NCBI GenBank assembly: GCA_028690215.1
Contig: JAQVBQ010000018.1
Location: 1-34,570 of the forward strand
Length of the DNA stretch: 34,570 nt
Source of the DNA: Bacteroidales bacterium
GTDB taxonomy: Bacteria > Bacteroidota > Bacteroidia > Bacteroidales > UBA932
Reading direction: 5' to 3'
Shown: one piece after another, positions 358-27,851 of the stretch
Layout: every line of letters begins with the position of its first letter
How positions within the stretch are numbered: the stretch's first letter is position 1
Position numbers and translations under genes: made by a program
Notes under the pieces: generated by a model
Told to the model about the DNA's origin: nothing
Seen by the model: the letters and a program-made list of their open reading frames with translations, nothing else
Databases searched by the model: none

Positions 358-416
358 ATTTGCAACCGTCACGAAAAAACAAAGAACAAAAGTTCTGACT
401 TTGAAATTAGAAAATA

Positions 417-432
417 TCGCATTTGGATGCGA
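417..432. promoter_or_regulatory. Palindrome upstream of the XRE promoter (candidate operator)
   Basis: TCGCAT (417-422) and ATGCGA (427-432) form a perfect inverted repeat with a 4-base centre, ending 7 bases before the -35 box. A second small palindrome, AGAAC-AAAA-GTTCT, is at 383-396. The position suits an operator bound by the XRE protein encoded just downstream, as with controller proteins of restriction-modification systems. This is inferred from position only. Confidence 0.35.
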
Positions 433-439
433 ATAAGTA

Positions 440-468
440 TTGCTTTAAATGGAGAAATGTGATATGAT
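440..468 (+). promoter_or_regulatory. Sigma-70 promoter of the defence operon
   Basis: TTGCTT (440-445) and TATGAT (463-468) are separated by exactly 17 bases, and the first gene of the operon starts at 520 with GAGAGGAG upstream. No equally good promoter was seen inside the operon, so this is probably the main promoter for the genes between 520 and 7785. Confidence 0.65.
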
Positions 469-519
469 ACTAGATGAGATATTTTAAACAAATGAAGATA
501 GGACCGAGAGGAGAAATAG

Positions 520-750
520 ATGTCTATATCGTATGACAAACTGTGGAAGTTATTGATAGATAAAAAGATGAGTGCAGCAGACTTGCGTAAGGCAGCTGAT
601 ATTGCTCCAAATACGATGACGAGAATGCGAAAAGACCAAGAGGTTACGCTGCTTGTTCTGGAAAAAATATGTGAGACATTAGATGCAGATTTTGGAGATA
701 TAGTTGAATATAAAAAATCAACTGACAACGATAAAGAGATGGAGGTATAG
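520..750 (+). CDS. XRE/Cro-type HTH regulator (controller-like)
   Basis: A 76-aa helix-turn-helix protein of the Cro/CI (XRE) superfamily. The HTH covers roughly residues 5-60: a first helix with YDKLWKLLIDKK, then MSAADLRKAADIAPNTMTRMRK as the helix-turn-helix, then LLVLEKICETLDADFGDIVEY, which is the usual closing helix and tail of small single-domain XRE proteins. The ATG is preceded by GAGAGGAG. It is the first gene of the operon, with a palindrome just upstream of the promoter, and its 3' end carries the ribosome binding site (GGAGGT, 741-746) of the methyltransferase gene. By analogy with C proteins of restriction-modification systems it probably controls operon dosage so that methylation precedes nuclease build-up; that role is inferred. 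Confidence 0.85.
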   Translation: MSISYDKLWKLLIDKKMSAADLRKAADIAPNTMTRMRKDQEVTLLVLEKICETLDADFGDIVEYKKSTDNDKEMEV

Positions 751-754
751 CATA

Positions 755-3280
755 GTGCTGAAAGATAAGAGTTTAACCTATGTTTCATTGTTCAGCTGTG
801 CAGGCGTAGGCTGTTATGGCTTCCATATGGAGGGCTTCCATTGTGTTGCAACGAATGAACTTTTACCGAGACGATTGGATGTTCAAAAGGCAAATCACAA
901 ATGCGAGTATGAAAGTGGATATGTGCCTGGCGATATTACTACAGATGAAGTGAAACAACACATTTATACCGAAATTGACAGATGGACAAAAAAAGGAAAT
1001 GATCGAGTAGATGTTGTAGTTGCAACGCCACCATGCCAAGGAATAAGTGTTATTAATCATAAAAAGACATCGAAGGAAATCAATCGGAACAGTTTGGTTG
1101 TTGAGTCTGTAGAAGTAATCAAAAATATAAGACCGAGATTTTTTATCTTTGAAAATGTAATGGCTTTTCAAAAAACATTATGTATTACCCCGGACAACCG
1201 GACGATACCGATTGGAGACTACATTCGAGAAGCACTTGGAGAAGATTACATTATTTCGGGCAGAATTCTGAATTTCATGAATTATGGCTCAAATTCATCA
1301 AGAACCAGAACCTTGATGATTGGGGTTGATAAGAAATATAGAAATAATATTACTCCTCTTGATTTATACCCAGACTATAAGCCGGAGAAGACACTGCGTG
1401 ATGTTATTTATGATTTTCCAAGGTTGGAGTGGGGCGAAATAGATGAAAATGATTTCTATCATGCATTCCGAACATATAGCCACGAAATGCGTAATTGGAT
1501 TCATGACCTGAAAGAGGGCGAATCCGCATTTGATAATGAGGATCCATTAAAACGTCCGCATAGAGTGGTCGATGGAAAAATCGTAGAAAATATACGCAAG
1601 AATAGGGATAAGTATACAAGACAGCCTTGGGACAGATTTGTTCAATGTGTTCACACTAGAAATGACCAGTTGGCGGCGCAGAACACGATTCATCCAGAAC
1701 AAGATCGAGTTTACAGCATAAGAGAACTTATGACGATGATGACGATTCCACGAGATTTTCAGTGGATGGAATACACTCTGGCAGAACTGAATGATATGCC
1801 TGATACTGAAAAGAAAAAAGTATATAAGACACATGAGGTAAATATTCGCCAGTGTATTGGTGAGGCTGTTCCGACCGAAATCATGCGCCAGATTGCTGCT
1901 AAAATCAAATTCCATCTTTTTGGAAAAATGTGTGATGCAACGGAAGTTAACAAGATTATTGCTGACAAGAAACTGACGGATAGGAATGCTTTGACGAAAT
2001 TCTTAAAAGCTAATCCGCTTAATTTGGATATGGCATCGCTTATGCGCATTACAGAATTATGTAATGCACGTCGGGAGAAGAATGCGGCTTTTTATACCAA
2101 TAAATTTATTGTGAATGAAATCATGGGGCAGTTGCCAGTATTTAACAAGGAAACGATTAGGATACTTGAACCCTCTGTTGGTGCTGGTAGCTTTATTCCC
2201 TTCTTATTCAAGCAATATGCCAATGTCCCTAATGTAATTCTTGATGTGGTTGATGTTGATGAAGAAAGTTTGGAAGCCTTTAAAATATTGCTTGAGCAGA
2301 TAGGGATACCAGAAAATTTTACTGTTAATTGCATTTGTCATGATTTTTTAACTTGGACTCCGGGTGCAGTTCCATATGATTTAGCCGTAGGGAATCCTCC
2401 ATTTTCAAAACTAAAAAAGCATACCAAAGAAATAGATGCTTGTTTAAAGGGAAATGTGAATCAAAAGACAAACAACCTTGCAGCAATGTTTTTGGAAAAA
2501 TGCATGAGATGCAGTGACTGTGTTGCATTGGTATTGAATAAGAACATACTTGCCACAGAAGAATATGCAGCAACCAGAGAACTATTACGCTCTGTGCAAA
2601 TAGATACGATTATTGACTTTGGCAGATATGGATTTACTGGAGTATCAATCGAAACGATGTGTTTGATTATATATCCAAAGCAGAAGCCAAAAGAAACTTC
2701 AATCTATAGCATGAAATACAACAAGCGTTTTTTGAGGAATCAAGACTATATTACGGATAACCGATTCCCCTCATTTGTGATATATAGAGATGAACAGTTT
2801 GATGAAGTTGCAAAGAAACTTGATTTCAATGTGTTTACTGTATTTAGAGATAGACAAATAACAAAGGCGGTGACTACTGCAACGGAAAGTGAAGATGCCT
2901 TGTGGGTTATCAAAGCTAGAAATATCAACGATGATGGGCTAGGTATAACGCACATTGACAATTACGATGTTTTTTTGCCGGAAGAAAAGGCAGAGTCGCT
3001 GTCAGTAGCACGCTTCCTTAATGATGAGAGCGTTTATCTGACCCCGAATATGACGTATAACCCAAGAGTGATAGAAAACCTTCCGAATACAATACCGGAT
3101 GGCTCGGTGGCTGTACTCATTCCGAGGAAACCATTTAGATTGACAGCGAAACAAAGAGCATTTTTTTCAACTGAAGAATATAGAAGGTTTTATGGTATTG
3201 CCAGAAATCTTTCTACACAGTCAATAAACGTGGACAATAATAGTGTGTTTTTTTACGGGGTGTTAAAAGATGACAAATAA
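755..3280 (+). CDS. Fused C5-cytosine and N6-adenine DNA methyltransferase
   Basis: An 841-aa two-domain DNA methyltransferase. Residues 1 to about 385 are a C5-cytosine enzyme: motif I near the N-terminus (LFSCAGVG), catalytic Cys94 in PPCQG, ENV at 133-135, RTR of motif VIII at 183-185, and a motif X GEAVP at about 369. Residues from about 430 are an N6-adenine enzyme of the TaqI/Eco57I-like gamma type: AdoMet site EPSVGAGSF (from 472), catalytic NPPF (547-550), then a C-terminal part suited to target recognition. I start it at GTG 755, eight bases after GGAGGT; an ATG at 704 would overlap the regulator deeply and has no binding site. Neighbours suggest it protects host DNA from the HNH nuclease encoded next, overlapping by 11 bases. 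Having both chemistries in one chain is unusual; it may protect the two strands of an asymmetric site or two different sites. Confidence 0.9.
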   Translation: MLKDKSLTYVSLFSCAGVGCYGFHMEGFHCVATNELLPRRLDVQKANHKCEYESGYVPGDITTDEVKQHIYTEIDRWTKKGNDRVDVVVATPPCQGISVINHKKTSKEINRNSLVVESVEVIKNIRPRFFIFENVMAFQKTLCITPDNRTIPIGDYIREALGEDYIISGRILNFMNYGSNSSRTRTLMIGVDKKYRNNITPLDLYPDYKPEKTLRDVIYDFPRLEWGEIDENDFYHAFRTYSHEMRNWIHDLKEGESAFDNEDPLKRPHRVVDGKIVENIRKNRDKYTRQPWDRFVQCVHTRNDQLAAQNTIHPEQDRVYSIRELMTMMTIPRDFQWMEYTLAELNDMPDTEKKKVYKTHEVNIRQCIGEAVPTEIMRQIAAKIKFHLFGKMCDATEVNKIIADKKLTDRNALTKFLKANPLNLDMASLMRITELCNARREKNAAFYTNKFIVNEIMGQLPVFNKETIRILEPSVGAGSFIPFLFKQYANVPNVILDVVDVDEESLEAFKILLEQIGIPENFTVNCICHDFLTWTPGAVPYDLAVGNPPFSKLKKHTKEIDACLKGNVNQKTNNLAAMFLEKCMRCSDCVALVLNKNILATEEYAATRELLRSVQIDTIIDFGRYGFTGVSIETMCLIIYPKQKPKETSIYSMKYNKRFLRNQDYITDNRFPSFVIYRDEQFDEVAKKLDFNVFTVFRDRQITKAVTTATESEDALWVIKARNINDDGLGITHIDNYDVFLPEEKAESLSVARFLNDESVYLTPNMTYNPRVIENLPNTIPDGSVAVLIPRKPFRLTAKQRAFFSTEEYRRFYGIARNLSTQSINVDNNSVFFYGVLKDDK

Positions 3281-4484
3281 TATACTTTCGAGATTTATAG
3301 ATGAACATAATTATGATGTTCGAGTATCAGGAAATGGAAGATGGATTGATCAGAAGTGTGCATTGGATGCAGTCTGCTTTGTAGCAGACTGTATAGTCGA
3401 TTATGTCCAGAAAGGCGGGAAACAACCTTTCCAATCCCCTGACATCTGGCACGCAGATTACTCCATTGAAAATGTGCAGCATTTATTTGGCAAGCCAGAC
3501 CCAACCATTAGAACAACGCTTGATGAATACAATAAATTTTTCAGGCAACCGATGAAAATGTTGGCTGCAGCGGGAGTTCTTCGTGAGGATGGAGTTGTGA
3601 ATAATACCATCCAGTTCAGTGTTGAAAAGACAGAGGTATTGGAATATATTGCTCTTCGTGAACGCAATTCATTTGAGTTCTTGTGTATGTACATAGAGAA
3701 AACATTAAAGGACAGCGGGCTTTGGGATAGCTTTGAAACCTTTTTTGATTTACAGACAAAAGAAGCTTTGCTTGATTTAAAGACCTCTTTTTCTGATTTT
3801 TGTATCAGATATACACCTATTAACACAACAGTCGAGGCGAATCGTATTTTCAGTAAGGTTCTGAATCCATTAGCTTGTAAAATGCATCTAAAGGGAATTG
3901 AGCGTGGTTACCTCTCAAAATCTATGATTACATATGACAAGATTATGTATAATCAAGCGAACTGGAGAGATAAAGCCGTGGGCAAAGACAAGAATATTGC
4001 TCGTGGTGATTTTATCCAGGCACCGCAGCAGGATAATCAGATGTATCAGTACAGAGTTTCAAGAGCCATCAAATATTTACGTCAGTTTAATGATAAGTAC
4101 AACGAGGGGAAATCTGAGGTATTGGATAAGTTTTCAGTTGGTGAAACAGCTACGCATATGCATCATATTTTCCCAAGGAACCAGTATAGAATTATCGCAG
4201 AGTACATGGAAAATCTTATCGCATTAACCAGCGGCCAGCATTTGCAAGCGGCGCATCCAAATGGAAGTACATCTGTTGTTGACCCGGCATATCAATATAC
4301 TTGTTTGATTGCAAAAACCGAGAGTATTAGGAAAAATATCATGAGCAATCATGGAGAGCCCGTTATTTATGACTTTGATGCTTTTATGTACGTGCTGGAT
4401 GTTGGATTAAAAACAGATTATTTTGAGGCTCTGCCATCCTGCGATTTTAATTCTGTTTTAACAGGAATTGAGTTTAATTTCTAA
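3270..4484 (+). CDS. HNH endonuclease, probable restriction enzyme
   Basis: A 404-aa protein whose C-terminal third has an HNH/beta-beta-alpha metal nuclease signature: HMHHIFP with His296, His298 and His299, an Asn in ENL about 15 residues on, and a further His in the QHLQAAHPNG segment. The first 290 residues match no domain I can name; they begin with WIDQKCALDAVCFVADCI and contain a helical stretch and probably the DNA-recognition part. The gene overlaps the fused methyltransferase by 11 bases, so the two are translationally linked, the usual arrangement of a methylase with its cognate nuclease. I infer it cleaves unmodified DNA at the site(s) that the methyltransferase protects. It might instead be a nuclease arm of the ABC-3C set downstream. 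No binding-site consensus better than GGGGTG precedes the ATG. Confidence 0.75.
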   Translation: MTNNILSRFIDEHNYDVRVSGNGRWIDQKCALDAVCFVADCIVDYVQKGGKQPFQSPDIWHADYSIENVQHLFGKPDPTIRTTLDEYNKFFRQPMKMLAAAGVLREDGVVNNTIQFSVEKTEVLEYIALRERNSFEFLCMYIEKTLKDSGLWDSFETFFDLQTKEALLDLKTSFSDFCIRYTPINTTVEANRIFSKVLNPLACKMHLKGIERGYLSKSMITYDKIMYNQANWRDKAVGKDKNIARGDFIQAPQQDNQMYQYRVSRAIKYLRQFNDKYNEGKSEVLDKFSVGETATHMHHIFPRNQYRIIAEYMENLIALTSGQHLQAAHPNGSTSVVDPAYQYTCLIAKTESIRKNIMSNHGEPVIYDFDAFMYVLDVGLKTDYFEALPSCDFNSVLTGIEFNF

Positions 4485-4543
4485 TAAACGGATAAAGTGA
4501 GGCGTGGCAAATAATAAAATGGCTTGAAGGAGGACAGCAATTT

Positions 4544-5542
4544 ATGCGTGTATTCAATTACGCTTCATACGCCCAGGCACTTGAGTTGGGAATTTCAAAA
4601 CCGAATATGACAAAAATTGCAAAGGCCTTGTTCGAGCCAATTATTAGCATGGACACAGTTCTAAATAGGAATGGAAATCCGTACACGATTACACCTACAA
4701 TGGCTAAGGCTTGGTGGGAGCAGACGAGTGACATACCGGGTAACATAAAAATCGCCACTGGAACTCCAGAGTTAATCGATGGTATTGGAGATTATTTTTA
4801 TGAACATATCATGGTTGGACTGATTAATCCAATGCGTGAATCTCAAATGTACTCAGCAATGGTCACACTTGTGAGAGATTCAGATTTGCAGAAAAATGAG
4901 ATTGATGAATTACTCCAGTATTATGAGTCAAAGGATAATGATGAATTTCTCGGACGAGCCTTTCTCTATTCTGTTGCAAAAGATAACACACAGAAAGATG
5001 CAGCGACTGTTGAGACACCCATTGATGCAGATATAAGGACGTTTAAGGAATTAATCAAAAAGAGTCATAAGAAGCCTATAAGTATCACACCACCAGAAGA
5101 AATCGAAGATCATGAATTGGGTTATGTGCAGGAACTGTATCATGTTTATCATGAAGAAACTGGAGAGGAATACGCTCGTCCGGCAGATTTAGATTCACAG
5201 CCGAAGTTAAAAAAGAATTTTAATCGTCAGCGCAAAGATTATTATTGCGCAGAAACAATTCACAGAGAACTGCGTGATACGATTCGGTTAGATGAAACAG
5301 AAGGATTTGATATTTTAAAGGATGAGATGTTTGATGGTGTCATCACAACCTGTGAAAAGGATTATGATAGTAGCCTGCAAAGACTGACTGCCGTTATGGA
5401 ACACGCTACAGGGGTTCCTATTTCTCATAATTTGCAAGACCGAATGCTTGATTGGGTTGGGCCGGGAGAGAAAAAGGGTGTTTGCCATATGCTCGTAAAT
5501 GATAAACGCCTTACATGGATGGAGGATGAAGACGATGATTGA
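4544..5542 (+). CDS. ABC-3C system component with C-terminal ABC-3C domain
   Basis: A 332-aa acidic protein. The last 110 residues have the pattern I associate with C-terminal domains of ABC-three-component proteins: FNRQRKDYYCAETIHRELRD, then FDILKDEMFDGV, then a helical ending with MLDWVGPGEKKGVCHML. The first 150 residues (SYAQALELGISKPNMTKIAK, later WWEQTSDIPGNIKIATGTPE and MYSAMVTLVRDSDLQ) are an N-terminal domain I cannot name. I see no classical nuclease, protease or membrane motif in it, so any effector activity is unknown. It has a strong AAGGAGG site after a 59-base gap from the HNH gene and overlaps the next gene by 8 bases. The component order CTD protein, middle component, ATPase supports the ABC-3C reading. 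Confidence 0.65.
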   Translation: MRVFNYASYAQALELGISKPNMTKIAKALFEPIISMDTVLNRNGNPYTITPTMAKAWWEQTSDIPGNIKIATGTPELIDGIGDYFYEHIMVGLINPMRESQMYSAMVTLVRDSDLQKNEIDELLQYYESKDNDEFLGRAFLYSVAKDNTQKDAATVETPIDADIRTFKELIKKSHKKPISITPPEEIEDHELGYVQELYHVYHEETGEEYARPADLDSQPKLKKNFNRQRKDYYCAETIHRELRDTIRLDETEGFDILKDEMFDGVITTCEKDYDSSLQRLTAVMEHATGVPISHNLQDRMLDWVGPGEKKGVCHMLVNDKRLTWMEDEDDD

Positions 5543-5984
5543 CAGCAAATTATTTAATTCTCCATTTGAAATGGAACTCAGGATGTTACTGCTTCTTTCA
5601 GCAAATTCGAAAACAGCATACACTGTGGACAGAATAGTAGCACTTGACTTTATTTCCTGTTATGCAGCGGATTTTAGTCTTCCTTATGGGAATCTCCACG
5701 GACAGAACAATTATAAATATGGAGAAATCTCGAACAGACGAATGCTCGTTCAAGAGGCGGTCAAAGCATCAGTAACCAAAGGATTAGTCAATGTGGTAAT
5801 TGACCGTGGTTATCTTTTTGTGATTTCGGAGCAGGGACTAAAATACATACGAAAACTCAAAGATGCTTATGCGTCCGAGTATAAGACGATTGCAAAGGCA
5901 GCTGTGAAAAAATACAGAAAGGACAGTGATGAGGATATTCTTGCATCAATACAGTCTTTTTCCTTAAGGTCACTCAAGGGCTAA
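5535..5984 (+). CDS. ABC-3C middle component, MC2-like
   Basis: A 149-aa protein beginning MIDSKLFNSPFEMELRMLLLL. This opening, followed by an AYTVDRIVALDFISCYAADF segment, a LHGQNNYKYGEISNRRMLVQ segment and a KASVTKGLVNVVIDRGYLFVI strand region, matches the layout of ABC-three-component middle component 2 proteins (FNSPLEIGLR..., LQRLVxLDYL, a LHP-type segment, R...L...A...L...GL), which look like winged-helix adaptors. I choose ATG 5535, nine bases after GGAGG and coupled to the stop of the preceding gene; an ATG at 5526 sits too close to the binding site. It is expected to bridge the ATPase and the CTD-bearing protein. Confidence 0.7.
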   Translation: MIDSKLFNSPFEMELRMLLLLSANSKTAYTVDRIVALDFISCYAADFSLPYGNLHGQNNYKYGEISNRRMLVQEAVKASVTKGLVNVVIDRGYLFVISEQGLKYIRKLKDAYASEYKTIAKAAVKKYRKDSDEDILASIQSFSLRSLKG

Positions 5985-5988
5985 TTAT

Positions 5989-7785
5989 ATGTTTTACATA
6001 AAGAAGATTTCCTTGCTTACAGGAGCCAATGTCATATCAACACTGGATTTGGAGCCGGGGCTAAATATAATATACGGTGAGTCCAATACAGGAAAAAGTC
6101 TGATAGTGGATTGCATTGATTATATGTTCGGGGCAACCGAACATCGTTTTGATGCCAAATTGCAGATTAAGCAGATTACGATGATATTAGATGTTGATGG
6201 TAAAAATCTGACTATGCGGCGAGAGATTGACAGCAATGATTTTGAGGTGTCAAGTTCTGTCGATTATATTGATAGTGATACATATAAAGCCGGAAATGCA
6301 AAAAAATGTATCAATGCAGTATGGCTTCGCTTAATGGGGATTAAGGATGAAGTTAAGATTATTCAGACTCTTGCAGGCAAACCACAGAGATTAACATTAC
6401 GCACCTTTTACCATACGTTGCTTATAGATGAGCAGAGAGTTCAGGCAATCAGCAGTGTATTGGCATCGGGCATTGGCTTTAACAAGAAGGTCGGTGTGCC
6501 TGTTCTGTCCTCTTTATTGTATTTTGCTACGGGTAATAATTATCTGCCGGAGAAAGCCGGAAAAGATAAAAAGACCAAAAGTGAGCGTAAGGATGCCGTT
6601 AAGAAGTTCGTGGACAGGAGTATGTCCAAATTAGCTGAGAGAAAGGTGTCAGAACTTCAAAATTTTTCTGAAGAAACACCTGCACAATTGCAGAAAAAGG
6701 TAGATTCTGTTATTGATGAGATTGGTGCGGTAGAAGGTGCCTTAGAGGAAGCAACGAACAGAAGCCGTGATATTGCAGATAAGATTATTGCTATAGATGA
6801 CCAAATCTCTGAGTCCCGTGTGTTACGGAACCGTAATACATCGCTTTTGACACAGTACGAATCAGACATCAAGCGTTTGACATTCATAGCAGATGGCGAT
6901 ATTCATAGTGACAGCATTATGAAATTAGATCACTGCCCATTCTGTAATGGGGAACTTCCGAAGGACAAGGAAGAATCCTGTATCGATGCTGCTATTGCTG
7001 AGGTCAAAAAAATTGAAGCTCAGATAAAAGATTTGCAATCAGTCCAGGATGCTATTGCCAGTGAAATGGAAGAATTGAATGAAACAAGACTTTCTCTGAT
7101 GGCAGAGCGGCGTCAAGTGGATTCTATGATTAGAGGAGAACTTAGACCTCAGATTATAATGCTTCGCAGCCATCTTGCAAATTATACGATGGCGTTGAAT
7201 CAGTATAAAGCAAAAGAAATGATTGAGGCATTCAGTGATGTATTAGTTGGCGAACTAAAGATAACTGAGGAAGAAGAATCGTCTACGCTTAAAGTTGATA
7301 TTTCAGGAAAGTTTAATGATATCTTCCATGATAAATTGGAACATATTCTCAAAGAGTTATTGGAAGTATGCAATTATCAGCGCTTTGCAGGAGTAAGGTT
7401 TGATACAGATGACCATGATGTTGTTGTAAATGGTCATTTGAAGAAAAGCCAAGGAAAAGGATTCCGAGCGTTCCTTAATACAATCCTTGCTATTGCTGTA
7501 CAGAATTGCCTTGATGAATTTAATCTGTTCAAGCCACAAATGCTGGTAGTTGATTCCCCTATCCTTTCGCTTAAAGAAAAAGAGGATCATATCGGAGAAG
7601 AGCATACATCCGAGACTATGAAAAGCGGGCTATTCAAGTATTTATTGCAGCATCAGGATACGCGCCAAACGATTATAATAGAGAACGATATTCCAGAGTT
7701 GGATTATGAAACCGCTCATCTTATAGAATTCACAAAAGACGAGCAAAGAGGACGATATGGTTTAATAACAGGATATCGTGATTAA
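5989..7785 (+). CDS. SMC/RecN-like ABC ATPase of the ABC-3C system
   Basis: A 598-aa ATPase. Walker A is GESNTGKS (residues 30-37), with the aromatic/Asp YMFGAT segment following. Residues about 200-410 are largely coiled coil, interrupted by CPFCNGE (Cys316 and Cys319), a half zinc-hook as in Rad50-type proteins. The C-terminal half has a signature-like SQGKGFRAFLNTILAIA and Walker B LVVDSPIL (Asp522), followed by the D-loop region, giving the split-head SMC/RecN/RecF arrangement. ATG 5989 lies 8 bases after AAGGG and 4 bases after the preceding stop. It is the last gene before a strong terminator. In ABC-3C systems the ATPase is thought to sense DNA or nucleoprotein structures and license the effector; here that is inference. 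Confidence 0.85.
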   Translation: MFYIKKISLLTGANVISTLDLEPGLNIIYGESNTGKSLIVDCIDYMFGATEHRFDAKLQIKQITMILDVDGKNLTMRREIDSNDFEVSSSVDYIDSDTYKAGNAKKCINAVWLRLMGIKDEVKIIQTLAGKPQRLTLRTFYHTLLIDEQRVQAISSVLASGIGFNKKVGVPVLSSLLYFATGNNYLPEKAGKDKKTKSERKDAVKKFVDRSMSKLAERKVSELQNFSEETPAQLQKKVDSVIDEIGAVEGALEEATNRSRDIADKIIAIDDQISESRVLRNRNTSLLTQYESDIKRLTFIADGDIHSDSIMKLDHCPFCNGELPKDKEESCIDAAIAEVKKIEAQIKDLQSVQDAIASEMEELNETRLSLMAERRQVDSMIRGELRPQIIMLRSHLANYTMALNQYKAKEMIEAFSDVLVGELKITEEEESSTLKVDISGKFNDIFHDKLEHILKELLEVCNYQRFAGVRFDTDDHDVVVNGHLKKSQGKGFRAFLNTILAIAVQNCLDEFNLFKPQMLVVDSPILSLKEKEDHIGEEHTSETMKSGLFKYLLQHQDTRQTIIIENDIPELDYETAHLIEFTKDEQRGRYGLITGYRD

Positions 7786-7800
7786 TATTGGTTCGGCTAC

Positions 7801-7836
7801 AGAGTCATTCACATTATGTGGGTGGCTCTTTTTTTA
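7801..7836 (+). terminator. Rho-independent terminator of the defence operon
   Basis: A 13-bp stem including G-U pairs (AGAGTCATTCACA at 7801-7813 with TGTGGGTGGCTCT-type arm at 7817-7829) closes over a 3-base loop and is followed by seven or more T. It begins 16 bases after the ATPase stop codon and separates this operon from the phage early genes. Confidence 0.85.
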
Positions 7837-8159
7837 TGCCCTTTTTTAACTATATTCGAACTATATTGTACCTGTATTCCATGTCGATTACAGATTTCTG
7901 ATTTTACAGTATATTAAGGACAGGCTTCAGTAAGCCATTCCTCTAAAGAGGAAAAAATAAATCTCACAGCCTGAGATGCGCATTAAGGCGGCGGGATACA
8001 TAGTAGGTTTGAACACAGAAATTATCTGTGGACAAGCCGATGATGTACCCACCGTGTCTTGTCATGCCATTTTTAGGTGCAGGAGTCGGTGGACACATAA
8101 TTCCATCGGCTCCTTTTATGTTCCTGCCGCCACCATCCGGGCGGAAAGGCAGGGACTTT
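7837..8159 (+). other. 323-bp gap: AT-rich start, small hairpins, structured leader
   Basis: No gene is called here. The first 80 bases are AT-rich and could hold the promoter for the sigma-like gene, though no -35/-10 pair stands out. Small hairpins occur at 7923-7936 (GGCTT-cagt-AAGCC) and 7938-7953 (TTCCTCT-aa-AGAGGAA followed by AAAAA). From 8036 a longer nested structure begins, described separately. A reading frame continues upstream from the next gene as far as 8028 (with PPCLVMPFLGAGVGG), but it has no binding site and is not supported as protein. Confidence 0.5.
8036..8110 (+). ncRNA. Candidate structured leader upstream of sigma-like gene
   Basis: Two nested helices: GCCGATG (8036-8042) with CATCGGC (8104-8110), and CCACCG (8049-8054) with CGGTGG (8087-8092). 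A small hairpin CACAG-CTGTG precedes it. It sits 50 bases before the start codon at 8160. It may be a cis-acting leader. There is only one copy in the window, so no covariation can be judged. Confidence 0.35.
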
Positions 8160-8642
8160 ATGAGAAAGTTCAAGACAGCGGAAAAGAACCGCACGAATTA
8201 TGTTTATTACACAGCAGAGGACAAGAAGATTGTTCTGACTCCAGATGACGTGGACAGCGACTGGATTGCATTCTTACACGGAGAGGATGACGAATCCGTA
8301 GATGCAGACCGCAGGGAGGATTATCACGTTCCAGTTCATTACGATGCCTATTCGGATGGAGAGGGCGATGATGCAGCAGATCGCAACGCCTATATGGAAG
8401 ATAATTCACCCGACCCATTTGAAAGTCTGATTCAGTCTATGGATGCGGCTGAACATGAGGACAAGCTGAAAAGATTAAAAGCAGCTATCCAGACATTACA
8501 GCCACAGCAGATTGCCTTGGTTCAAAAGGTGTTTTATGAAAACCGTACCAACGTGGACATTGCTGCAGAAGAAGGTGTTACGGAGGCTGCAATCCGCAAT
8601 CGTCTGAAGAAGATTTATACAAACCTCGCAAAAAAGATTTGA
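8160..8642 (+). CDS. Sigma-70 region 4-like regulator
   Basis: A 160-aa protein with a C-terminal helix-turn-helix typical of sigma-70 region 4 or ECF-like proteins found in Firmicute mobile elements: LKRLKAAIQTLQPQQIALVQKVF, then NRTNVDIAAEEGVTEAAIRNRLKKIYTNLAKKI. The N-terminal half starts MRKFKTAEKNRTNYVYYTAEDKK, a strand-rich segment common in this family, followed by a very acidic linker (residues about 40-95). ATG 8160 is preceded by GGCAGGGAC; longer starts extend into the structured leader and lack a binding site. It opens the phage early module and may direct transcription of phage genes, or act as an anti-/pseudo-sigma, since region 2 is missing. Confidence 0.7.
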   Translation: MRKFKTAEKNRTNYVYYTAEDKKIVLTPDDVDSDWIAFLHGEDDESVDADRREDYHVPVHYDAYSDGEGDDAADRNAYMEDNSPDPFESLIQSMDAAEHEDKLKRLKAAIQTLQPQQIALVQKVFYENRTNVDIAAEEGVTEAAIRNRLKKIYTNLAKKI

Positions 8643-8723: not shown

Positions 8724-8930
8724 ATGGCAGTAAAGCACAAAGTCACAATCAATATCTCTGATGCAAACGGAGGAAAATCCACAGTTTTGCGAGGTGCGAA
8801 TATGAAACTCCCGGCAAGAATCATTCGATTTCTGTTCGGTGATTTCACACAGGTGTACCTCTTAAAACCGGGACAGACCGTGGAATCCGTGGATGTCAGA
8901 GAAATCAAGGAAGGGGGTACGACATCATGA
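8724..8930 (+). CDS. Small conserved-looking phage protein
   Basis: A 68-aa protein starting MAVKHKVTINISDANGG. It is strand-rich, with a basic middle (MKLPARIIRFLFGDF) and ends VYLLKPGQTVESVDVREIK. I recognise no domain. ATG 8724 lies 8 bases after AAAGGAG; an upstream in-frame ATG at 8670 would add an Arg-rich segment that overlaps the leader repeat and has no binding site. Its stop overlaps the next start (ATGA), so it is co-translated with the 120-aa gene. Confidence 0.65.
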   Translation: MAVKHKVTINISDANGGKSTVLRGANMKLPARIIRFLFGDFTQVYLLKPGQTVESVDVREIKEGGTTS

Positions 8931-9289
8931 GTAAAGTAAGCGAATTGTCCATGCTCGTTGAGGAACTTCGAAAATGCGGAGAAATGCTTGTAGGTATTTC
9001 GGAGGGATTGGCTGATATGTTCAGTGGTGCAGGTGAAGAAAAACCACCTGCAAAAAAGGTAGCACCAAAGAAGAAAGTAGCAGAGGAGCCTAAGCCTAAA
9101 TTGCAGGAAGAAAAGCCGCTGACTCTGGAAGATGTCCGAGCCGTGTGTGCGGATAAATCCCGCAAAGGCTTTACGGCAGAGGTTAAGGCAGTCCTCACAA
9201 AACATGGTGCAGACAAGCTGTCCGAGGTAAACCCGGCAGAATATAAAGCACTGCTTGCGGAAGTGGAGGTGCTTGGTAATGCCGGATAA
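8927..9289 (+). CDS. Phage protein with Lys/Pro/Ala linker, unknown function
   Basis: A 120-aa protein in three parts: an amphipathic helix with heptad-like hydrophobics (VSELSMLVEELRKCGEMLV), a KPPAKKVAPKKK-type low-complexity linker (residues about 43-65), and a C-terminal helical domain (LTLEDVRAVCADKSRKGF, VLTKHGADKLSEV, YKALLAEVEVL). The last part has the look of the small domain found at the end of phage recombination or replication accessory proteins (LeDVRavla...G....v..ll...G...l..v......l). Start is coupled (ATGA) to the preceding gene and its end overlaps the DUF2800 start by 11 bases, so these genes form an operon. The function is not known. Confidence 0.7.
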   Translation: MSKVSELSMLVEELRKCGEMLVGISEGLADMFSGAGEEKPPAKKVAPKKKVAEEPKPKLQEEKPLTLEDVRAVCADKSRKGFTAEVKAVLTKHGADKLSEVNPAEYKALLAEVEVLGNAG

Positions 9290-20785: not shown

Positions 20786-21771
20786 AGCCGAGGATTCCGA
20801 TTGAAATAGGAAAAGAATATGGCTGGCTTACCGTATTGGGTGAAGGAGAAAGAGATAAGTCAGGGCATCATCGTTATCATGTTCGCTGTCGATGTGGAAA
20901 CGAATATGATGTACAGCCATCATTCTTAAAAAGTAAAGAACCAAAATGTAAAAATTGTGTACAAGGAACCAAGCGCCCACATCAGTCGGATGATATTGTT
21001 GGAAAGACAATTAATTCATGGAAGGTACTGCGAAACACGAATACAAAGGATGAGCAAGGAAATTATTTATTTAAGTGCAGGTGTATTCAGTGCGGTGCGA
21101 TTTCTTATAAGCGAAAGAGCGAGGTGCTGCGTTCCAATGGAAAAGGCTGTCAGCATTGCACTCCTGATTATCACTTTACTGTTTCAGGAGATACTGCACA
21201 TGGCATTCTCCCGGATGGGACAGTGTTTCTGATAGATGCAGAAAATGTCGAGCAGATTTCAAAAATGTACTGGAAATATAGTAAATCCAAAGGATACATC
21301 CAATCAACAGAAAGAAAGTTTGAGCGAATGCCACTTCATAGGTTTTTGCTCAATATTACGGATTCGTCAATTTTGGTAGATCATATTAACAGGAATCGTT
21401 TAGATTGCCGAAAGAGTAATCTTCGGATTGCAACGGCACAACAAAACAGCATGAACTGCAGTATGCGGGCAAATAAGACAGGATATAAAGGTGTCAGTTT
21501 TATCAAAAGGAAGAACCTTTATCGCGCCCAGATAGGAATCAATAATCGTGACATACATCTTGGAAGTGCCAAAGATCCCGTGAAATGCGCACAGATGTAT
21601 AATATCGCAGCGCAAATTCTGTTCAGAGAATACTGTGGCTTTATCAATGATGTGCCTGATGCAGATTCGGCATTGCAGAAAAAAATAGAAAATAAACTGC
21701 TGCCATATTTGGCAGAGTCAGAAGTGGCTGCACAATCGTGTAGTCATTTTTTATGCGATAAAGGAGCGTGA
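20782..21771 (+). CDS. HNH/AP2-type homing endonuclease with zinc ribbons
   Basis: A 329-aa free-standing homing-endonuclease-like protein. The N-terminal half has two zinc-ribbon modules (CRCGNEYDV...CKNC at residues about 35-60; CRCIQCGA...CQHC at about 95-130), each preceded by a short GWLTVLGE/SWKVLRN strand motif. Then come an HNH core (MPLHRFLLN, LVDHINRNRLDCRKSNLRIAT) and an AP2-type DNA-binding domain (TGYKGVSFIKRKNLYRAQI, and an AAQILFREYCGFIN tail). Base composition is more AT-rich than the flanking genes. It overlaps the terminase small subunit by ATGA, indicating a clean insertion. Related enzymes are seen throughout phages as selfish genes. Confidence 0.88.
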   Translation: MKPRIPIEIGKEYGWLTVLGEGERDKSGHHRYHVRCRCGNEYDVQPSFLKSKEPKCKNCVQGTKRPHQSDDIVGKTINSWKVLRNTNTKDEQGNYLFKCRCIQCGAISYKRKSEVLRSNGKGCQHCTPDYHFTVSGDTAHGILPDGTVFLIDAENVEQISKMYWKYSKSKGYIQSTERKFERMPLHRFLLNITDSSILVDHINRNRLDCRKSNLRIATAQQNSMNCSMRANKTGYKGVSFIKRKNLYRAQIGINNRDIHLGSAKDPVKCAQMYNIAAQILFREYCGFINDVPDADSALQKKIENKLLPYLAESEVAAQSCSHFLCDKGA

Positions 21772-21776
21772 TTATT

Positions 21777-22559
21777 ATGATAGAAAAAGTGAACCCAAAG
21801 CACCCTGACAAGGTGGCGGATAGAATTGCCGGAGCCATTGTGGACTTGGCATACAGAGCCGAAGAAAATCCGAAGATTGCCGTGGAGGTATTGATTGGGC
21901 ATGGCAAATGCCATGCAATTATTGAAACCACAGCACAGTTATATGAAACAGATATTTGTAGTGCGATTACTCGCATTGCAGGAGAAGTGGAAACAGATAT
22001 TGTGATTGTTCCGCAGGATACGCATCTTTCGGAGAACCAGTCCGGCAGTGTTCACTGTGGGGACAACGGCATCTTCAAAGGAATGCCACTGACGGCGGAG
22101 CAGAAAGAATTATCACAGATTGCTCATTCCATTTATGAAAACTACACATCGGACGGCAAGTACATTCTGGACGGTGTCAGGCTGATTATCTGTCAGAGCA
22201 ATGCCGACAGTGAGGAACTGAAAAACACATATCCGGGTGCAGAGGTCAATCCGCTCGGTGGCTGGACTGGCGGTACGGATGTAGATACGGGAGCCACAAA
22301 CCGTAAGCTGGGTTCTGATATGGCAGACAGTGTCACAGGCGGCGGACTGCATGGGAAGGACTTATCCAAGGCGGATGTGTCCGTCAATATTTATGCGTTC
22401 CTAAAAGCACAGAAAACAGGAGAGCCTGTGCAGCTTGTATGTGCTATCGGTGACAGTGAAGTGGACGGTATTCCCTATGCAGACATCGTAGCAGAAGCAA
22501 GAAAATATATTGATGCCATCGGCGGCTTTGAGAAGTTTGCTGAATGGGGTCTGTATTAA
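21777..22559 (+). CDS. metK-like: Shortened S-adenosylmethionine synthetase homologue
   Basis: A 260-aa homologue of S-adenosylmethionine synthetase (cellular enzymes are about 380-400 aa). Motifs retained: HPDK (9-12) at the N-terminus, a GDNGIF counterpart of GAGDQG, DTGATNRK corresponding to DCGLTGRK, and GGGLHGKDLSKADVS corresponding to GGGAFSGKDPSKVDRS. About 100 residues of the central domain and part of the C-terminus are missing. ATG 21777 is 10 bases after AAGGAG; a GTG at 21768 is too close to that site. It is followed directly by two DNA methyltransferase genes, so it probably raises AdoMet supply for them. Whether the trimmed enzyme is active cannot be told from sequence. Confidence 0.85.
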   Translation: MIEKVNPKHPDKVADRIAGAIVDLAYRAEENPKIAVEVLIGHGKCHAIIETTAQLYETDICSAITRIAGEVETDIVIVPQDTHLSENQSGSVHCGDNGIFKGMPLTAEQKELSQIAHSIYENYTSDGKYILDGVRLIICQSNADSEELKNTYPGAEVNPLGGWTGGTDVDTGATNRKLGSDMADSVTGGGLHGKDLSKADVSVNIYAFLKAQKTGEPVQLVCAIGDSEVDGIPYADIVAEARKYIDAIGGFEKFAEWGLY

Positions 22560-26771: not shown

Positions 26772-26906
26772 CTGCTGTAAGATACACAATTTTCCTCCAA
26801 AAAGATTGTGTAGATTATGCTGAGAATTGAGTGGATATAGTCGGCACACAGCGGTAATATGTGTACTACCAAAAGGAAAACAAACCAAACGGAGGTACAT
26901 AAAATG
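26766..26906 (+). repeat. Intergenic cassette, copy 1 (near-identical to 28669-28808)
   Basis: A roughly 140-bp unit running from the final Glu-stop codons (GAATAA) of one gene to the ATG of the next. It contains a stem TACACAAT (26783-26790) / ATTGTGTA (26805-26812) whose loop carries TTTCCTCC, a sequence complementary to ribosome binding sites, and a second stem TGCTGA (26818-26823) / TCGGCA (26841-26846). A TAATATGTGTACTACC word precedes the GGAGGT of the amidoligase gene. Compared with copy 2 the second stem has a C-to-T change that turns a C-G pair into a U-G pair, so pairing is kept. Confidence 0.75.
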
Positions 26907-27851
26907 AGCGAGAAAACCACAAGACAGGTTGAAGAAATGAAACAGCAGACCATCGGAGTTGAGGTCGAGATGAACGGCATCACAAGGGATAAGGCAGCAA
27001 AACTTGTAGCCACCTACTTCGGCACAGAAAGATACGAAAACACAGCCGGACGCAACGGCTATAGCACTTGGTCGGCTTGGGACGGGGACGGCAGAGAATG
27101 GAAATTCCAAAAGGATGTCAGCATCGCTGGATGCGACAGCGAGAAATGCGAACTGGTAACCCCAATCCTTACCTACGCAGACATCGAGGTTTTGCAGGAA
27201 CTTATCCGAAAACTTCGACACGCAGGAGCAAAAAGCGATGCCACAAGGGGCTGCGGAGTTCACATTCACATCGGAGCAAACGGACACACCCCACAGACCA
27301 TGAGAAACCTTGCGAACATCATGGCAAGCCACGAAAGTCTCATAGCCGATGCCCTCGACCTTGACAGGGGCAGGATGCATCGCTACTGCAGAACGGTTGA
27401 CCCTCGGTTCTTGGAGCAGGTCAACAAGAAAAAGCCAAAGACGATGGCGGCACTTGCAGACATTTGGTACTCCTCCAACGGAGCCAACTACGGCAGAGAC
27501 CATCATTACAACGACAGCCGCTACCATATGCTGAACTACCATGCAACCTTTACCAAGGGAACAATTGAATTCAGACTTTTCCAATTTGATGCCCCGGCAG
27601 ACGGCAAGCTGAACGGACTTCATGCCGGACAGCTAAAAAGCTACATTCAGCTTTGCCTTGCACTCAGCCAAATGGCGAAAACGGTAAAGAGTGCAAGTGC
27701 CAAACCACAGCAGAATGAAAATCCGAAATACGCAATGAGGACTTGGCTCTTAAGACTTGGCTTCATCGGAGAGGAATTCAAAACAGCAAGAGAAACCCTT
27801 ACCAAGAAACTCGCAGGAGATACAGCCTTCAGAAACGGCAGAGCCGCTTGA
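26904..27851 (+). CDS. Amidoligase family protein
   Basis: A 315-aa protein of the amidoligase (COOH-NH2 ligase, glutamine synthetase-like fold) group. Visible motifs: IGVEVEMNG (acidic metal ligands) near residue 17, RNGYSTW...WKFQKDVSI, CELVTPIL, GCGVHIHIG (His ligands) at about 115, YCRTVDPRF, and RYHMLNYHATFTKGTIEFRLF (the closing Arg/Glu motif) near 215. The C-terminal 45 residues (NPKYAMRTWLLRLGFIGEEF on) are an added module shared with the 249-aa protein upstream. Such enzymes join amino acids to carboxyl groups; together with a gamma-glutamylcyclotransferase encoded next, a peptide-ligation/release cycle is plausible. ATG 26904 is 7 bases after GGAGGT. Confidence 0.85.
   Translation: MSEKTTRQVEEMKQQTIGVEVEMNGITRDKAAKLVATYFGTERYENTAGRNGYSTWSAWDGDGREWKFQKDVSIAGCDSEKCELVTPILTYADIEVLQELIRKLRHAGAKSDATRGCGVHIHIGANGHTPQTMRNLANIMASHESLIADALDLDRGRMHRYCRTVDPRFLEQVNKKKPKTMAALADIWYSSNGANYGRDHHYNDSRYHMLNYHATFTKGTIEFRLFQFDAPADGKLNGLHAGQLKSYIQLCLALSQMAKTVKSASAKPQQNENPKYAMRTWLLRLGFIGEEFKTARETLTKKLAGDTAFRNGRAA

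Follow-up and report, generated by a model that had tools for sequence, protein, structure and literature searches.

A phage-borne Lamassu set behind an exchangeable restriction cassette in a Bacteroidales contig

Contig JAQVBQ010000018.1 of a Bacteroidales bacterium (34,570 bases; the window, which is the whole of contig C97 from a 153-contig assembly, 90.1% complete with 6.58% contamination) carries six closely packed genes on one strand at 520-7785. We find that these genes are two known defence systems in tandem, carried as cargo by a tailed phage, and not a new merged machine. Judged by sequence, the second and third genes are an HpyAV/Hin4II-type IIS restriction-modification (R-M) pair with a small helix-turn-helix (HTH) regulator ahead, and the last three are a Lamassu (ABC-3C) set in the order LmuA-LmuC-LmuB. 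In close relatives of this Lamassu the position directly upstream of LmuA is mostly filled by restriction genes whose kind changes from locus to locus. We propose, with roughly even confidence, a two-layer phage-encoded defence cargo whose layers are coupled through DNA ends. As a preliminary description of the sequence had listed them, all six open reading frames (ORFs) are present, with intergenic gaps of 4, -11, 59, -8 and 4 nt.

520-750, + strand: HTH regulator of the XRE/Cro type (HTH_26 3e-19), 76 aa
755-3280, + strand: fused methyltransferase, 841 aa, with a cytosine-C5 (C5) domain (PPCQ, ENV) followed by an N6-adenine (N6) domain (NPPF)
3270-4484, + strand: restriction endonuclease with an HNH-type motif (H298, H299, N315, H324), 404 aa
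4544-5542, + strand: LmuA, 332 aa, with a predicted all-helical N-domain at about 4544-4993 and CTD6 at about 5114-5518
5535-5984, + strand: LmuC, the ABC-3C middle component MC2 (MC2 8e-38, PDLC03875 2.9e-44), 149 aa
5989-7785, + strand: LmuB, SMC/Rad50-like ATPase (PDLC03867 2.6e-159), 598 aa

Seven relatives of the window Lamassu were found through LmuA and not through the R-M genes. A scan of viral contigs for LmuA gave at least two contigs, separate scans for an LmuA motif and for LmuB gave the same two, and a second LmuA motif added L064; two N-terminal LmuA peptide patterns gave 4 loci among genome contigs, and further relatives were surely missed. No full-length LmuA relative beyond the window's own genome was found in 395 genomes of the class, 393 of the order, 299 of the family and 395 of the phylum (overlapping sets). 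With the window, 8 loci thus share the same full-length LmuA type, at identities to the window of 93% (L011), 82% (L003), 65% (L010), 49% (L004 and L012) and 37% (L064), and of 84% over the 144 residues present in L013. In 6 of the 8, LmuA is directly preceded on the same strand by restriction genes, of five kinds in all.

Window and L013: HpyAV-type pair
L011: C5 methylase and EcoO109I-type nuclease (Pfam 3.3e-68)
L003: type I S, R, RhuM, S and M genes
L010: Mrr_cat-ResIII-helicase protein and a 234-aa protein without assignment
L064: AAA_5 protein (REase_II model 8.8e-16) and McrC-like protein (McrBC 2.1e-30)

The restriction genes are separated from LmuA by 59 (window), 30, 54, 416 (L003), 22 and 99 nt. 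No methylase is seen in the Mrr-helicase cassette of L010 or the McrBC-like cassette of L064, and the C5 methylases of the window and L011 are distant homologues in cassettes that differ in kind. For L003, L010, L013 and L064, the upstream sequence runs out at, or close to, the end of the contig or of the examined stretch. The Lamassu set is intact in the window, L003, L004, L010 and L011; in L012 LmuB is cut by the contig end. Phage early genes (DUF2800, single-stranded DNA (ssDNA)-binding protein, polymerase) follow the Lamassu in the window, L003 and L010, and a stub of the first of them follows in L064.

By blastn, homology between the window and L011 covers 126-363 (86%) and 4517-8200 (89%), with the 4.15 kb in between replaced, and DNA homology between the window and L003 begins at 4524. 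In both comparisons the exchange point falls 20-27 bp before the LmuA start codon.

364-4516, + strand: segment in whose place L011 has an HTH gene, a C5 methylase and an EcoO109I-type nuclease

The preliminary description had placed the whole operon under one controller. An XRE-type HTH protein is indeed present; however, since L011 has a different HTH_26 gene ahead of its different R-M genes, the regulator looks like part of the restriction cassette.

For comparison we took 21 less related CTD6-Lamassu loci (from 13 of 134 plasmid records, 3 phages and 5 genomes). Loci on plasmids and in phages were assessed from their annotation (incomplete in the case of plasmids), those in genomes from tblastn and reading frames, plus Pfam searches of two proteins. 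In 3 of these 21 (Azotobacter, Klebsiella and Citrobacter; one type, no methylase) LmuA is overlapped on its upstream side by a restriction-type nuclease, and a recognised complete R-M system stands directly upstream in none. Fisher tests, which were set up after the pattern had been seen, on few loci and against a background that we chose ourselves, gave p = 0.004 for restriction genes upstream (6/8 vs 3/21) and p = 0.002 when the window and L013 were counted as one and the three nuclease loci as one (5/7 vs 1/19). For a complete R-M system with methylase, p = 0.013 (3/7 vs 0/19). L004 and L012 were kept apart in the collapsed tests though they are one lineage (3451 bp in common at 93.6%), which works against the pattern.

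Some background loci have features of their own. In three proteobacterial plasmids (L041, L044 and L052, at 4858-5853) the nuclease has 331 aa and overlaps LmuA by 4 nt; that of L041, the sole one profiled, is mREase_IV-like, and the protein may serve a different Lamassu lineage as a second effector. L046 has a shortened LmuA adjoining an insertion sequence. The phages L026 and L027 share related early genes with the window and carry a standalone CTD6-Lamassu beside the same phage genes in the opposite orientation; their LmuA N-domains do not align to that of the window.

The first half of the block has a published counterpart. The fused C5/N6 methyltransferase named in the preliminary description is borne out by profile matches (DNA_methylase 1e-32, Eco57I 2.8e-9, N6_Mtase 1.3e-6) and by a nearly full-length match to PADLOC PDLC03277 (2.5e-262). 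As its start we chose a GTG behind GGAGG; the first start of the ORF caller is a TTG at 704. The 404-aa protein, which had been called an HNH nuclease, is a restriction nuclease by its match to the PADLOC REase_II model PDLC03488 (9.5e-126 over residues 1-402; no matches to this model in 14 control genomes), but none of the libraries names it HNH: Pfam and NCBIfam give no match of any kind, and an HNH family of PHROGs reaches E 0.11 only. The HNH label comes from the motif and from the HpyAV paper (PMC2816704). H298, H299, N315 and H324 are invariant in 7 of 7 aligned nuclease sequences, window included, and their spacing (His-His, Asn 16 on, His 9 further) is exactly that of HpyAV H294/H295/N311/H320. 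A search of the nuclease against the PDB by sequence gave no match.

According to that paper, HpyAV is an 823-aa C5 and N6-adenine fusion upstream of a 419-aa HNH nuclease cutting CCTTC(6/5), and the dual chemistry of M.HpyAV is explained by an asymmetric site, in which a C has to be marked on one strand and an A on the opposite one (PMC2816704). The window pair has the same order, with 841 and 404 aa; it differs in being phage-borne, with an HTH gene ahead and a Lamassu behind. The likeness to HpyAV/Hin4II was judged by architecture and catalytic spacing, not by alignment to their proteins, and the REase_II model bears no enzyme name. CCTTC is mildly low in the phage part of the window (observed/expected 0.85), with no clear signal of avoidance. 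The preliminary description knew of no named, experimentally described system with this exact gene list; its dual-chemistry methyltransferase is the published M.HpyAV architecture and its ABC-3C set is a Lamassu.

At most of the loci examined the pair stands without Lamassu. The nuclease is present in 5 of 395 genomes of the class, the window's included, and the fused methylase stands beside it in all four others. Five plasmid and phage records hold the nuclease, three of which were examined, and scans of viral contigs with the nuclease and with the methylase did not find relatives. Among the nine HpyAV-type loci examined (window, L013, L014-L017 and L028-L030), Lamassu genes adjoin the pair in two, the window and L013, where they are a remnant; none are nearby in the other seven. 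The arrangement also varies: in the Acinetobacter plasmid relative L029 the N6 domain is encoded as a separate gene, and in L030 methylase and nuclease are 2 kb apart on opposite strands. Together with the 6 of 8 close Lamassu loci that lack an HpyAV-type pair, this refutes, by the preliminary description's own standard, the exact gene list as one merged system. A looser pairing survives, that of window-type Lamassu with some restriction cassette.

In the second half, the reading of the 332-aa and 149-aa proteins as ABC-3C parts was upheld: LmuA matches CTD6 (2.3e-43) and the PADLOC model PDLC03857 (7.7e-55), and the 149-aa protein matches MC2. The SMC-like ATPase likewise has the expected profile, with Walker A GESNTGKS (30), zinc hook CPFC (residues 316-319), signature SQGKG and Walker B VVDSP. 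In Walker B a Ser takes the place of the catalytic Glu, as in 11 of 12 aligned CTD6-type LmuB proteins, the twelfth having Thr. A review describes a Glu-to-Gln change at this place as general in LmuB, suggesting low or no ATP hydrolysis (PMC10586767).

The N-domain of LmuA, searched alone as residues 1-160, gives no Pfam match at 0.1 and no PADLOC match at 0.001, although PDLC03857 aligns from residue 21 in the whole protein. AlphaFold2 predicts an all-helical domain of about 150 aa (the best of five models reaches pLDDT 92.7, the remaining four 40-53). Foldseek of the N-domain against the PDB (E<=0.001) and of the full-length LmuA model against viral proteins gave no match, nor did a search for the N-domain in phages and plasmids. 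By sequence, LmuB has no PDB match and LmuA a best E of 0.05. A match of the N-domain profile to an aminotransferase in the PDB (best E 0.0025, over 47 residues) was judged a chance hit. Any activity of the N-domain is conjectural.

We propose that the fused methylase would mark an asymmetric site, with 5-methylcytosine on one strand and N6-methyladenine on the other, and that the HNH-type enzyme would cut unmarked incoming DNA. As a second layer, LmuB with LmuC would sense aberrant DNA (ends, hairpins), and LmuA would then be unleashed to stop the cell. The layers may be coupled in that the restriction enzyme in the upstream slot would make ends which, if the invader persists, would help to trigger LmuB and then LmuA. 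Such coupling would explain why different DNA cutters fill the slot while the Lamassu stays. Reviews describe Lamassu as an abortive-infection system that senses hairpins or DNA ends (PMC10586767, PMC12904381), and report that at native levels Vibrio Lamassu does not restrict efficiently without DdmDE (PMC10586767). Linear DNA and agents that induce breaks switch on the Rad50-like, zinc-hook protein RloC, for which a fallback role under alleviated type I restriction has been suggested (PMC3874168). Nuclease restriction with an abortive back-up, one of the possibilities raised at the outset, still appears to be the best mechanism; nothing supporting the proposal that methylation status gates the Lamassu was found.

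Several points weigh against coupling. The pattern rests on 8 loci in all, the Fisher tests carry the limits given above, and the gap to LmuA in L003 is long. L004 has a baseplate J gene upstream of its Lamassu, and L012 a large gene that is chromosomal-looking by eye; neither has restriction genes directly upstream. In L013 (4418-4927) LmuA is cut near residue 150, just past the N-domain, and no LmuC or LmuB occurs in the 10 kb behind, yet the R-M frames are open. In L064 (2797-3915) LmuA is fused into the end of an apparent phage early protein (window 8927-9289) and LmuC and LmuB are gone, which looks like an internal deletion in a related phage. With the Lamassu broken in these two loci, R-M does not need it. 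Conversely, RloC activation in Acinetobacter is reported not to have required its R-M system (PMC3874168), so that sensing of ends can be independent of restriction.

Plain stacking is a serious and quite possible alternative: the space from the attachment site to the early genes would be a cargo slot in which an R-M system lands by chance beside a Lamassu, and each would work alone. R-M systems are among the commonest defence genes. The seven HpyAV-type pairs without Lamassu fit this explanation, as do the Lamassu sets without restriction genes directly upstream (L004, L012 and the phages L026, L027 and L053), the R-M genes that lie near other Lamassu loci, not directly upstream of them (e.g. 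downstream in L041 and L046), and the low G+C of the six genes (0.37-0.40 vs 0.476 for the rest of the window), which marks the operon as cargo. However, the slot cassettes of all six loci are DNA-cutting systems, standing directly upstream on the same strand, and in the two comparisons that show the junction, homology resumes so close to the LmuA start that LmuA stays readable from the cassette transcript.

An unlikely alternative is that LmuA of this clade lacks an enzyme, with its helical N-domain serving as an adaptor and the upstream restriction system as the weapon. The Lamassu would then be a sensor platform that recruits or de-represses the plugged-in cutter, whose ends would feed back on the sensor. 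Still less probable is addiction, in which R-M would stabilise the prophage and its loss would leave an unmethylated chromosome to be cut, with the Lamassu adding to the killing. Addiction of this kind is known for type II R-M systems, the block adjoins an attP-like site, and an end-sensing Lamassu would react to cuts; but the type I, Mrr-helicase and McrBC-like cassettes would be poor addiction modules, the last two having no methylase seen. A single system in which methylation state directly gates the SMC sensor, as first suggested, is favoured by the tight packing of the genes, a lone terminator and what may be a single promoter, but is very improbable, as its parts occur apart more often than together, close Lamassu relatives stand beside other cassette kinds or ones without methylase, and the profile search found no domain linking methylase and LmuB.

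Both halves are already known, and gain by Lamassu of a nuclease-protease module upstream of LmuA has already been shown (PMC12799240). The window set shares with Lamassu, ABC-3C and DdmABC the LmuA-LmuC-LmuB order, CTD6 and MC2, the zinc-hook SMC-like LmuB and the altered Walker B; it differs in its small helical LmuA N-domain, with no recognisable enzyme, and in the restriction cassette directly upstream. PrrC-EcoprrI likewise joins a restriction system to a second-line, cell-disabling partner (PrrC), and RloC has a Rad50-like hook and break sensing (PMC3874168, PMC3506569). In those systems, however, the effector is an anticodon nuclease, and PrrC is tied to, and silenced by, a type Ic R-M system (PMC3874168, PMC3506569), whereas here the R-M kind changes; no anticodon nuclease family is among the Pfam matches of the six window proteins at E<=1. 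The nuclease-protease pairs in Lamassu, Hachiman and Avs are also an extra module directly upstream of LmuA, repeatedly gained; there, a metallo-beta-lactamase (MBL)-fold nuclease accompanies an LmuA-fused protease, whereas here the restriction system is self-contained and no fusion is seen (PMC12799240). The immunity-suicide coupling hypothesis expects a link between immunity genes and an abortive back-up, but is framed for toxins, and Lamassu does not figure in the available parts of the paper (PMC3506569). Among the matches listed from open-licence literature, mainly titles and abstract openings, there is no description of Lamassu with swapped restriction cassettes.

The natural trigger of Lamassu is unsettled, with hairpins and DNA ends proposed (PMC10586767, PMC12904381). 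Close Lamassu relatives behind five kinds of cutter form a natural series in which restriction products can be tested as the trigger. The same series bears on the generality of immunity-suicide coupling and shows phages exchanging restriction specificity ahead of a fixed back-up, with an LmuA N-domain that has no assigned family.

The remainder of the window is a tailed phage, encoding an Enc34-type ssDNA-binding protein, DNA polymerase, helicase/primase, antirepressor, small and large terminase, portal, Clp-type protease and capsid, so that the six-gene block is phage cargo, of low G+C and beside an attP-like site. A terminal repeat of 20-299 bases, which would indicate circularity, was not found, and near-identity searches against phages and plasmids gave no match. 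The features flanking the genes are as follows.

65-269: attP-like region, a 27-bp block (126-152) inside a perfect 15-nt inverted repeat (65-79 / 255-269)
278-361: three imperfect 27-nt repeats, GGGTTGAGTTGACAGGAT-like, before the cassette; also in L011 and L013
440-468, + strand: candidate sigma-70 promoter, TTGCTT, 17 nt, TATGAT with an extended -10 TG; 8/12 by eye
7801-7829, + strand: intrinsic terminator, scan-listed, 13 pairs then a T-run

The 27-bp block agrees in 26 of 27 bases with the 3′ terminus of an rlmD-type host gene in L011, where the cargo adjoins that gene directly; we infer that 65-269 is an attachment site (attP). The gene name was assigned by eye, without a profile. As to insertion at rlmD in the window's own genome, other contigs offer no more than a relative at 34% and a short match at 27%. 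The GGGTTGAGTTGACAGGAT-like repeats, found upstream of the cassette at about 7615-7700 in L011 and about 194-275 in L013, are possibly an operator or recombination site. As a shared element, the three-repeat element was rejected, since its 8 IMG/VR contigs are about what a rough estimate gives for chance.

The single promoter and terminator of the preliminary description held in part: the terminator is listed by the scan, but the promoter, at 8/12, falls below the scan cut of 9 and is missing from it. The scan itself gave 28 promoter-like sites vs 26.7 in shuffles, which is no excess. The six genes may be co-transcribed. Besides HTH_26, the regulator has a far weaker, marginal match to Colicin_immun (22.3 bits, cut-off 22). 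Elsewhere in the phage part, 22510-25723 encodes methylases that belong to the phage itself, one a ParB-like/DNA methylase fusion and the other matching phrog_38038 through its C-terminal half, and 26859-27851 and 21768-22559 encode an amidoligase-type gene and a protein with an N-terminal S-adenosylmethionine synthetase N-domain.

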